A DNA stretch of 64,000 nucleotides, taken from assembly GCF_016599855.1 (NCBI RefSeq), contig NZ_CP067041.1, forward strand, positions 3,968,001-4,032,000. Reading direction: 5' to 3'. Made by a program: the position numbers and the translations under genes. The notes beneath the pieces were generated by a model. The model made no database searches and was not told where the DNA came from. It was given only the letters and a program-made list of their open reading frames with translations. The stretch comes from Bradyrhizobium diazoefficiens. Lineage in GTDB: Bacteria; Pseudomonadota; Alphaproteobacteria; Rhizobiales; Xanthobacteraceae. Positions 3,963-5,929 of this stretch are shown here, in pieces (position 1 is the stretch's first letter; every line of letters starts with the position of its first letter).

Positions 3963-4568
3963 ATGAGCGCGACGAGACGACGGGTGTACGGGTTACTGGC
4001 GATCGCCCTGTCGGGCTTGCTCATCGCAGCGCCCGCACGCGCAATCGTCTCTGCGGGCAGCACACTCACCGCCCTCCACAGCGAGACAGATGGTGACGCC
4101 GCGGCGGACCGCCAGGCCGTCAGCCGCGAGATCGAGCGCTTCCGCAGCTCGTCGATCTCGATCAGCCAGGCCATGGCGATTGCGGAAGCCCGTCATGCCG
4201 GCGCGACGACTGCGGATGTCAGCTTCGATGGCGGCTCAGGCGTGCCGGTCTACCGCGTCAAGACCCTACACAACGACCGGATCTGGCGCCAGACCATCAA
4301 TGCCGCAACCGGCGAGGTCATAGGCGGCGAAGCCGCCCTGCCCCTGAGCGAGCTGGACCACGAGGATCGCAGCACTCTCGCAGCGCTCGGCACCATCAAA
4401 CACCGCCTTGCGGATGCGGTGCGCGTCGCCGAGCAGGCTGCGTCCGGCAAGGCCATCAGCGGCGGGCTGGTGCGCGAACGCGGCCGGCTCAATTTCGCGA
4501 TCGTCGTCATCAGCGGCAACGACCTCAAGGAGGTCATCCTCCAGCCGCCGGGTGCGCGGGGCAAATAG
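3963..4568 (+). CDS. Secreted PepSY-domain protein
   Basis: The 201-aa product starts with a basic region and a hydrophobic segment ending APARA, a plausible Sec signal peptide. The middle (about residues 60-120) matches PepSY, with a helix SISISQAMAIAEAR followed by strands ending in INAATGEVIGG. PepSY domains are known as periplasmic inhibitory or regulatory modules. ATG 3963 is chosen because it gives the signal peptide; the frame is open upstream without one. The gene ends just before the asd leader promoter on the same strand and appears to be a separate unit. Confidence 0.75.
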   Translation: MSATRRRVYGLLAIALSGLLIAAPARAIVSAGSTLTALHSETDGDAAADRQAVSREIERFRSSSISISQAMAIAEARHAGATTADVSFDGGSGVPVYRVKTLHNDRIWRQTINAATGEVIGGEAALPLSELDHEDRSTLAALGTIKHRLADAVRVAEQAASGKAISGGLVRERGRLNFAIVVISGNDLKEVILQPPGARGK

Positions 4569-4596: not shown

Positions 4597-4625
4597 TTGA
4601 CGGGTGCGGGACTCTCCCGCATAAG
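4597..4625 (+). promoter_or_regulatory. Sigma-70-type promoter of the asd leader
   Basis: TTGACG (4597-4602) and CATAAG (4620-4625) are separated by exactly 17 nt. A transcription start 6-9 nt after the -10 box falls at or next to the A of the leader ATG at 4634, so the leader peptide mRNA would be leaderless or nearly so. There is no Shine-Dalgarno sequence before that ATG, which agrees with this. Confidence 0.6.
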
Positions 4626-4633
4626 TCGCCGCC

Positions 4634-4705
4634 ATGTTCACGACCACCAAACGCACGACCAAAACCACCACGGCCTTCGGGGCCCGGGGAGGCGTGCGCG
4701 CGTAG
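4634..4705 (+). CDS. Threonine-rich leader peptide upstream of asd
   Basis: This 23-codon ORF (ATG 4634, TAG 4703) has eight threonine codons, at positions 3-5, 8-9 and 11-13, interrupted only by Lys and Arg. It is followed about 30 nt later by an intrinsic terminator and then by asd, a threonine-pathway gene. That is the classic layout of ribosome-mediated attenuation: stalling at Thr codons when charged tRNA-Thr is scarce would let an alternative RNA structure block the terminator. No ribosome binding site is visible, and the promoter position suggests a leaderless transcript, as known for the rhizobial trpE leader. The regulatory role is inferred. Confidence 0.7.
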   Translation: MFTTTKRTTKTTTAFGARGGVRA

Positions 4706-4735
4706 TCGTCGACTAAAACGCATCAGCTCTACCGA

Positions 4736-4766
4736 AGCCCCGCCCTTAGAGGTCCGGGGCTTTTTT
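4736..4766 (+). terminator. Attenuator terminator in the asd leader
   Basis: AGCCCCG (4736-4742) pairs perfectly with CGGGGCT (4755-4761) around a 12-nt loop and is followed by a run of T. The CCCCG arm can alternatively pair with the GGGGC or CGGGG segments at 4679-4689 inside the leader ORF, giving a mutually exclusive antiterminator. The asd start codon follows 32 nt after the T-run. Confidence 0.75.
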
Positions 4767-4797
4767 GTTGTCTCAATCGATCTCAATGGAGGACGTA

Positions 4798-5823
4798 GTG
4801 AGTAACGATCCCGTCGTCGCAATTGTCGGCGTCACCGGTGCGGTGGGCGCCGAATTCATCGCCACCATGGACAAGCGCGGCTTTCGCATCAGTAAGCTCA
4901 AGGCGCTCGCCAGCGCCCGCTCTGCCGGCAAGACGGTGTCGTTCCGGGGCCAGACCATCGTCATCGAGGAACTGACCGAGCGCGCCTTCGAGGGCGTCGA
5001 CATCGCGCTGTTCTCTGCCGGCAGCGGCATCTCGAAGAAGTTCGCGCCAATCGCCGTCAAGGCCGGCGCCGTCGTCGTCGACAACTCCTCCGCCTTCCGC
5101 ATGGATCCGAACGTGCCGCTGGTGATCCCCGAGGTCAACGGCAACCGCATCCGCGATCACAAGGGCATCATTGCCAACCCGAACTGCGCCGCGATCACCG
5201 CGCTGGTGCCGCTCTGGCCGATCCACCAGAAGAACCGCATCAAGCGCGTGATCATCTCGACCTATCAGGCGGCAAGCGGCGCCGGCGCGGCCGCGATGGA
5301 CGAGCTCGTCGAGTCCACCCGCGCCAATCTCAACGGGCAGGTCTATATGCCCAAGGTGATGCCGCATCCCTATGCCTTCAACCTCTTCAACCACAACACG
5401 GCCGTCGACCCCGAGACCGGCTACAACGACGAAGAGACCAAGGTCATCAATGAGACCCGCAAGATTTTCGAGGACGAGAGGATCGCAATCGGCGTCACCT
5501 GTGTTCGCGTGCCCGTGCTGCGCGCGCATTGCGAGGCCATCACCTTCGAATGCGAGAATCCGATCAATGAGGACCAGGTCCGCGCCATCATGGCGCAAGC
5601 GCCCGGCGTGAAGGTCGTCGACGACCGCGTGAAGAACTACTTTCCGATGCCGATCGATGCCTCGGGCCAGGACGATATCCTGGCCGGCCGCATCCGCAAG
5701 GACCTCAGCGACCCCTCCGGCCATTCGATCTCGATGTTCGTGGCGGCCGATCAGCTGCTCAAGGGCGCCGCTCTGAACGCGGTGCAGATCGCGGAGCTGC
5801 TGCCGCAGCGTGTGATGGCGTAA
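4798..5823 (+). CDS. asd: Aspartate-semialdehyde dehydrogenase
   Basis: Asd reduces aspartyl-4-phosphate to aspartate-4-semialdehyde with NADPH, the branch-point step for lysine/diaminopimelate, methionine and threonine. The 341-aa product has the N-terminal Rossmann motif GVTGAVG, the active-site cysteine in NPNC (Cys130) and the histidine region VPVLRAH. GTG 4798 is chosen because GGAGG lies 5-7 nt upstream; an earlier in-frame TTG lies inside the attenuator T-run and would be unusable. Control is probably through the threonine leader just upstream. Confidence 0.95.
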   Translation: MSNDPVVAIVGVTGAVGAEFIATMDKRGFRISKLKALASARSAGKTVSFRGQTIVIEELTERAFEGVDIALFSAGSGISKKFAPIAVKAGAVVVDNSSAFRMDPNVPLVIPEVNGNRIRDHKGIIANPNCAAITALVPLWPIHQKNRIKRVIISTYQAASGAGAAAMDELVESTRANLNGQVYMPKVMPHPYAFNLFNHNTAVDPETGYNDEETKVINETRKIFEDERIAIGVTCVRVPVLRAHCEAITFECENPINEDQVRAIMAQAPGVKVVDDRVKNYFPMPIDASGQDDILAGRIRKDLSDPSGHSISMFVAADQLLKGAALNAVQIAELLPQRVMA

Positions 5824-5836
5824 CACGGACGGTGTC

Positions 5837-5929
5837 GTAGGGTGGGCAAAGGCGCGCAAGCGCCGTGCCCACCACTTTTACCGCACATTCAAGAAAGATG
5901 GTGGGCACGCTTCGCTTTGCCCACCCTAC
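5837..5929. repeat. Dispersed palindromic repeat overlapping the queA 3' end
   Basis: GTAGGGTGGGCAAAG at the left end is the exact inverse of CTTTGCCCACCCTAC at the right end, with inner GTGCCCACCA/TGGTGGGCAC arms. The element lies between convergent asd and queA, and its right arm is read as the last codons and stop of queA. The arrangement matches a high-copy intergenic palindrome I recall from Bradyrhizobium genomes, often seen read as protein ending in VGKAKRAHH or GWAKRSVPT. Copy number cannot be tested here. Confidence 0.75.

Follow-up and report, generated by a model that had tools for sequence, protein, structure and literature searches.

Our analysis of a 64,000-nucleotide window of the Bradyrhizobium diazoefficiens genome (the whole stretch of DNA examined here) points to a ribosome-mediated transcription attenuator that would sense threonine and lysine together, in front of a second gene for aspartate-semialdehyde dehydrogenase, asd-2. 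We consider this reading quite probable, and the Thr/Lys leader most likely switches asd-2 on under shortage of these two amino acids. Mechanisms of this class are already known; new are the combination of Thr and Lys codons, the controlled gene, how widely such leaders occur, and a paired lysine leader. More broadly, we lean slightly towards the view that Alphaproteobacteria employ Thr/Lys leader peptides to control asd, with two or more forms of output, among them one with an intrinsic terminator (in Bradyrhizobium asd-2 and a small number of further asd genes) and one terminator-free (in most of the Hyphomicrobiales leaders sampled), and that a separate lysine-only, ribosome-mediated attenuator acts on a second, dapA-like gene in Bradyrhizobium. 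Such a regulatory system, at the lysine/threonine/methionine branch point in a large bacterial class, would be testable, and it would combine a dual-amino-acid sensor, nearly leaderless translation of the leader, and a paired lysine leader in one genome.

The leader element and its conservation

The putative attenuator comprises the following parts, with coordinates counted from the first letter of the window.

4597..4625, + strand: predicted sigma-70-type promoter TTGACG-17-CATAAG, from sequence and conserved spacing (-35 TTGACG at 4597-4602, 17-nt spacer, -10 CATAAG at 4620-4625)
4634..4705, + strand: leader ORF MFTTTKRTTKTTTAFGARGGVRA, 23 codons, no Shine-Dalgarno, stop codon at 4703-4705; candidate control codons Thr3-5, Lys6, Thr8-9, Lys10 and Thr11-13
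4672..4675, + strand: candidate region 1 (GGCC), suggested by the sequence, which may pair with part of region 2 to give a small hairpin
4679..4689, + strand: region 2 (GGGGCCCGGGG), the antiterminator strand within the leader ORF, from recoding and permutation tests
4732..4742, + strand: region 3 (CCGAAGCCCCG), common to antiterminator and terminator, from alignment and a permutation test
4736..4766, + strand: intrinsic terminator with T-run, from sequence, folding and conservation (AGCCCCG at 4736-4742, 12-nt loop, CGGGGCT at 4755-4761, T-run at 4761-4766)
4788..4792, + strand: Shine-Dalgarno GGAGG of asd, from sequence
4798..5823, + strand: asd (second paralogue, asd-2), aspartate-semialdehyde dehydrogenase, GTG start, from NCBIfam profiles

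The element includes a short ORF rich in codons for end products of the pathway, with eight Thr codons and two Lys codons (6 and 10). The window has 455 ORFs of 15-40 codons that start with ATG (both strands, each nested start counted separately), and this one ranks first among them in Thr richness (8 of 23 codons; the next has 7 of 28). The terminator, a perfect 7-bp stem, lies between leader and gene, and the promoter that conservation predicts lies upstream of the ORF, its last base 8 nt from the leader ATG. Both promoter and terminator were absent from the list that a built-in scan returned for the window, because the scan accepts only -10 boxes that finish with T (this one has G) and hairpin loops up to 8 nt long (this one has 12). 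The case for the promoter rests on its conservation, in 121 of 122 loci. As a whole, the leader RNA is not unusually stable (z -1.64; 10 of 200 shuffles were equally good). No Rfam family, including the threonine leader of the thr operon, reached its gathering score in the window, where a search at E up to 5 gave only a weak match to asX2 on the opposite strand.

The gene downstream had been called asd from its sequence, and the NCBIfam profiles uphold this (TIGR01296, 400.7 bits against a cut-off of 324.2; NF011456, 429.3 against 223). It is, more exactly, the second, genus-typical paralogue, whereas the family-wide asd lies elsewhere and lacks a leader. In the own genome, which is one contig of 7.1 Mb, this other asd is found at 335574, is 46% identical to the one in the window, and has no such leader upstream. 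Both types occurred in all seven genus genomes drawn (own included) in a family search of 149 genomes, 142 of which had any match. Outside the genus, that search returned a single asd-2 match above 60% (G075, 82%), with G037 at 51%; an order search of 249 genomes added one more (G595, 62%), and a class search of 115 genomes yielded seven with asd-2 matches of 55-77%, of which that in G754 carries an internal stop. This scattered spread suggests transfer or repeated loss. Contig JAUEPE010000002.1 (locus L034), titled Frankia sp. RB7, carries a Bradyrhizobium asd at 96% identity, and is probably from a mislabelled or mixed assembly. Directly after asd, at 5837-5929 of the window, lies an inverted repeat (GTAGGGTGGGCAAAG...CTTTGCCCACCCTAC), and a similar sequence adjoins asd in two other loci (L005 and L007).

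Within Bradyrhizobium, the region was matched in 186 of 195 genomes. Leaders were read from the best 80 of 574 matching stretches and from loci of further genomes; some genomes occur twice. With the leader required to have 20-26 codons, five or more of them Thr or Lys, a search found the TTGA, the 17-nt spacing, the -10 and a Thr/Lys leader in 121 of 122 Bradyrhizobium-type loci; the exception, L165, is an extra leader-like stretch without a -35, in which tblastn reported no asd. Among the 121, TTGACG and CATAAG were each present in 119, and the distance from -10 to ATG was 8 nt in 108 loci, 9 in six, 7 in five and 10 in two. In the stretch 5-15 nt ahead of the leader ATG, none had an SD-like tetramer (GGAG, GAGG, AGGA or GGGG); 120 kept the T-run terminator. 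The sequence-only reading had described the Thr-rich 23-codon ORF, this promoter beside its ATG, the missing Shine-Dalgarno, and the 7-bp hairpin with its T-run, all of which recur across the genus; the leaderless arrangement that it proposed gains support from the narrow -10-to-ATG spacing.

Not in the count of 122 are five extra asd-2 copies (L162, L163, L164, L166 and L167), which retain the -10, leader and terminator but have a different sequence upstream of these, and a sixth copy that is degraded (L168). Near the six copies, ORFs resembling a transposase, HemN and a TlpA-like protein were seen by eye, and the surroundings are perhaps a mobile or symbiosis region. A sigma-54 promoter was considered for these extra copies and rejected: the apparent GG-N10-GC varies among them, and a motif scan found none.

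A plainer account would make the hairpin an ordinary terminator of the upstream transcript and the small ORF a product of chance, with no regulation at all. Intrinsic terminators are common, and a PepSY-domain gene does end at 4568, 28 nt before the -35. However, the conserved promoter sits between that gene and the terminator, Thr/Lys ORFs before asd far exceed controls, and leader and region 3 co-vary in their pairing (both treated below), which leaves this account very improbable. As the promoter follows the end of the upstream gene and the terminator stands 31 nt before asd, transcripts from this promoter must cross the terminator.

Candidate control codons and a proposed pairing switch

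An attenuator at asd-2 would work through the coupling of leader translation to RNA folding. RNA polymerase would start at, or a few bases from, the leader ATG, and a ribosome would initiate on this nearly leaderless RNA. If charged tRNA-Thr or charged tRNA-Lys runs low, the ribosome would stall in the Thr/Lys run and free region 2, the GGGG-rich end of the ORF, to pair with region 3 (CCGAAGCCCC); this pairing would block the terminator (3:4), and asd would be transcribed. With threonine and lysine plentiful, the ribosome would reach the stop codon and mask region 2, so that the terminator could form and termination would release a leader RNA of about 130 nt.

Two aspects of this model are open to comparison among relatives, the first being the codons. 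Of 127 loci tried, 125 gave leader regions (108 distinct), while L085 and L168 failed to fit the pattern. The ORF has 23 codons in 120 loci, 24 in three (L091, L147 and L157, the first two sharing one identical sequence) and 22 in two (L073 and L009), and the leader of L085, read by eye, is longer by one codon; every length change outside the degraded copy is therefore a multiple of three. The distinct 23-codon leaders number 69 and include four from extra copies. Of these 69, 68 have Thr11, 67 have Lys6, 65 Lys10, 64 Thr8 and 63 Thr5, and in the four leaders without Lys10 it is replaced by Thr. The third codon position accounts for 45% of pairwise differences in codons 2-12. Over the whole ORF its share is 34%, which is no excess and, taken alone, no argument for coding; we attribute this to RNA pairing in the 3' part.

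Conservation of the Thr codons had been set as a check on control of asd by threonine. The codons are conserved, so that this part of the proposal stands; threonine as the sole signal is unlikely, given the equal conservation of Lys6 and Lys10. Since these are conserved as strongly as Thr, the attenuator most likely senses both amino acids, and control by the two together is the most likely arrangement at a gene that feeds both. Joint control also eases the puzzle of threonine alone governing asd. The Lys codons might nonetheless be kept for some different reason, and threonine alone could be the signal with the two Lys codons incidental. The codon balance speaks for this, at eight Thr to two Lys in the leader of the window and 52% Thr to 20% Lys in the 12-codon windows of 57 order-level leaders described below. 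We find it unlikely, however: Lys6 and Lys10 equal the best Thr codons in conservation, each of the 57 order-level windows (selected by Thr plus Lys) holds at least one Lys, a Lys-Lys pair is present at 30 of 30 loci of the dapA-like leader type found in the own genome, and asd precedes the lysine branch.

The second aspect is the pairing. The terminator arm had been proposed to pair with GGGG-rich sequence inside the leader ORF, and two statistics favour this. First, the pairing of the leader end with region 3 beats the mean of 500 synonymous recodings in all 19 representatives, with 7 of 19 single tests at p ≤0.05 and 14 of 19 at p ≤0.1; the 1:2 hairpin within the leader was no stronger than in recodings in the same 19 (median p 0.58). 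Second, we paired each of 24 leaders, five of them from non-family loci (L374, L376, L378, L379 and L241), with every region 3. The own pairs sum lower than permuted ones (20,000 permutations, p 0.0008, relatedness uncorrected). For the five non-family leaders, 0, 0, 0, 6% and 6% of foreign partners beat the own one. In L073, 94% of foreign region 3 partners pair better than its own, and in the remaining 18 leaders, among which region 3 hardly varies, the own partner is beaten by 6-71%. Consensus folding gave almost no covariation (term -0.4), because terminator and leader are nearly invariant.

We also modelled the switch in seven sequences by removing the RNA up to the front edge of the ribosome. 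With the A-site at codon 7, 9, 10 or 11, and before region 4 is made, the predicted pairing of region 3 with the leader is 0.46-0.88 (0.74 for the window), and an A-site at codon 12 gives 0.49 for the window. With the A-site at codon 19 or later, it falls to 0-0.03 in the seven sequences and the terminator reaches 0.94-0.99. Once the RNA is complete, a stalled ribosome still leaves the terminator at 0.22-0.99 in the window's sequence, and complete RNAs with a stalled ribosome often favour the terminator among the seven; the switch must therefore rely on timing, with the antiterminator forming first. In the absence of a ribosome, the model gives the window RNA a terminator at 0.99 and an antiterminator at 0.02. 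Untranslated RNA is predicted to pair region 3 with the leader first in L043, L173 and L172 (0.80-0.88), with L170 at 0.48, and behaviour without translation may differ between species. By these statistics and by the model, antiterminator and terminator would be mutually exclusive.

The 3' codons of the leader bear on another alternative, that the leader yields a functional small peptide or a trans-acting RNA, like rnTrpL/peTrpL of Sinorhizobium, with attenuation secondary. The peptide ends in GGVRA, which is strongly conserved across the genus, and the leaderless trp leader provides a precedent for functions in trans (PMC10117765, PMC7298713). Yet the conserved 3' codons overlap the pairing strand, and beyond the family the C-terminus varies (SVIARA in L374, EACAR in L376, LVLAG in L379) while the Thr/Lys content and the pairing stay. 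We rate this alternative as improbable, a little more so than sensing of threonine alone. Under attenuation by Thr and Lys, the released leader RNA and peptide would still be candidates for roles in trans, by analogy with the trp leader of a relative.

Related leaders in other lineages and at a dapA-like gene

To cover a wider range, up to 450 nt before asd were scanned for ORFs with a 12-codon window containing at least seven Thr plus Lys. In an order-level sample, made up of the better-scoring asd matches and not random (L241 is asd-2-type and L312 comes from the own family), such a leader ORF precedes 57 of 102 asd genes, against 1 of 102 on the reverse strand and 2 of 1020 dinucleotide shuffles. 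Among own-family asd genes other than the Bradyrhizobium-type asd-2, one of 23 has a Thr/Lys leader. The order-level leaders end, for example, in AKKTTKTTTKTV, TTKTTTT or FKTTTKTTPAAKGGTAG, each followed by the stop codon, and 53 of the 57 lack the GG..TTTTT signal. Sequestration of the Shine-Dalgarno was considered as their output and found no support: pairing between the 60 nt past the leader stop and the last 38 nt of the upstream stretch reached p 0.05 against shuffled letters in 2 of 57.

At the class level, ordinary asd genes have a leader in 4 of 33 cases (reverse strand, 0 of 33) and asd-2-type genes in three of seven; a fourth of these (L378) scores 6, and the scanned upstream stretches of L375, L377 and L380 hold none. 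Among the non-family asd-2-type leaders, L374 and L376 have a T-run terminator, and L378, L379 and L241 a similar hairpin without a T-run; L374 shares both the terminator sequence and the leader design of Bradyrhizobium. Judged by sequence, the arrangement in the window appears to be part of a wider alphaproteobacterial pattern.

A covariance model built from the asd-2 leaders matched 189 of 391 family genomes at E 0.01, and also picked up leader-terminator units before a dapA-like gene. Among 20 weaker matches opened, an in-frame unit precedes a dapA-like gene in L223, L228, L229, L230 and L233, and similar leaders occur in L219, L220, L224 and L236, with the next gene unconfirmed as dapA-like. 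The gene of the own genome, at 6295705, scores 184.9 bits with TIGR00674, below the cut-off of 206.15, and is for this reason called dapA-like. Its leader is laid out as follows.

From about 6295502 (locus L239 from 1298): TTGACA-17-CATCAT, 6 nt, ATG, leader MITKSCAIVSKKGPHPGTSDFCAR and stop codon

The dapA-like gene is present in 57 of 60 genus genomes. In all 30 of the best-scoring dapA-like loci (L344-L373), the leader contains AAA-AAA and is followed by a terminator, and in most of eight loci inspected a GC-rich hairpin begins within about two bases of AAA-AAA. Here too, leaders pair with their own region 3 better than under permutation (p 0.005). This apparently leaderless unit is a candidate lysine attenuator. 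Related leaders in other genera (L219, L224, L228, L229, L230, L233 and L236) have a single Lys codon each, as in MIIRIAHLASKYRGRFGAGDARAR, and often a GAGDARAR-like end.

The model search for homologous leaders elsewhere in the own genome gave seven weaker matches, none accepted: L183 is a different small ORF with a terminator, and L184-L189 seem to be the ends of genes or other sequence with terminator-like hairpins. The genome's own dapA-like leader was absent from these seven and was found via a relative. In the own genome, hom lies close behind another gene and lacks a leader. The L183-type unit, another apparently leaderless small ORF with a terminator, recurs among weak model matches in L221, L227 (MIKSSRTFNRNHMTRFGWAVGGVAR), L232 and L235. 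In the own genome it occupies 5218289-5218429 on the minus strand, before a small gene that presumably resembles DUF1127.

Comparison with known systems

A near counterpart in mechanism is the thrL attenuator of the E. coli thrABC operon, in which a leader with Thr codons is coupled to a mutually exclusive antiterminator and intrinsic terminator. The asd-2 leader is like it in its Thr codons and in the predicted antiterminator and terminator. It differs in the gene controlled and in the start of the leader, as thrL, which carries Thr and Ile codons, is led by a Shine-Dalgarno and the asd-2 leader has none. Our searches of open literature gave no description of a lysine leader-peptide attenuator, and older attenuation surveys may hold one. 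Those of Vitreschak et al. 2004 and Lopatovskaya et al. 2010 reportedly deal with attenuation and may already list such leaders.

The passages available from four further papers name no asd leader (PMC5082802, PMC1273637, PMC4833913, PMC4117421). Leaderless mRNAs are not rare in Bradyrhizobium, since its start-site map has, in the portion consulted, 320 start sites that lie 0-10 nt ahead of a start codon; the main text of that paper, so far as consulted, does not mention asd (PMC4842269). A close counterpart in initiation is rnTrpL/peTrpL of Sinorhizobium meliloti, whose leader RNA begins with the AUG of the leader ORF at an established start site, according to the sections consulted (PMC10117765). 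Both would be attenuators before a biosynthetic gene, trpE there and asd-2 here, where the start site is only inferred. The distance of 7-10 nt between -10 and ATG, seen in 121 loci, fits this trp-type start, and a Shine-Dalgarno precedes the leader ATG in none of them.

The one close precedent in the literature searched is the SEP5 sORF of the same species, in which six Thr codons and three Lys codons lie close to the 3' end and for which translation was shown (PMC10117765). It lies in the 5'-UTR of a gene termed aspartate dehydrogenase-encoding, was suggested by the authors to be a leader peptide, and is reported as conserved only in Sinorhizobium (PMC10117765). Two loci of our own set (L261 and L263) probably resemble SEP5 loci and would be Sinorhizobium-like; unlike the asd-2 leader, their ORF closes with the Thr/Lys run, and they have no T-run. 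SEP5 and the asd-2 leader are alike as small Thr/Lys-rich ORFs upstream of a gene with a suggested leader peptide, and they differ in that the asd-2 leader has a terminator, whereas the sections consulted describe neither terminator nor structure for SEP5 (PMC10117765).
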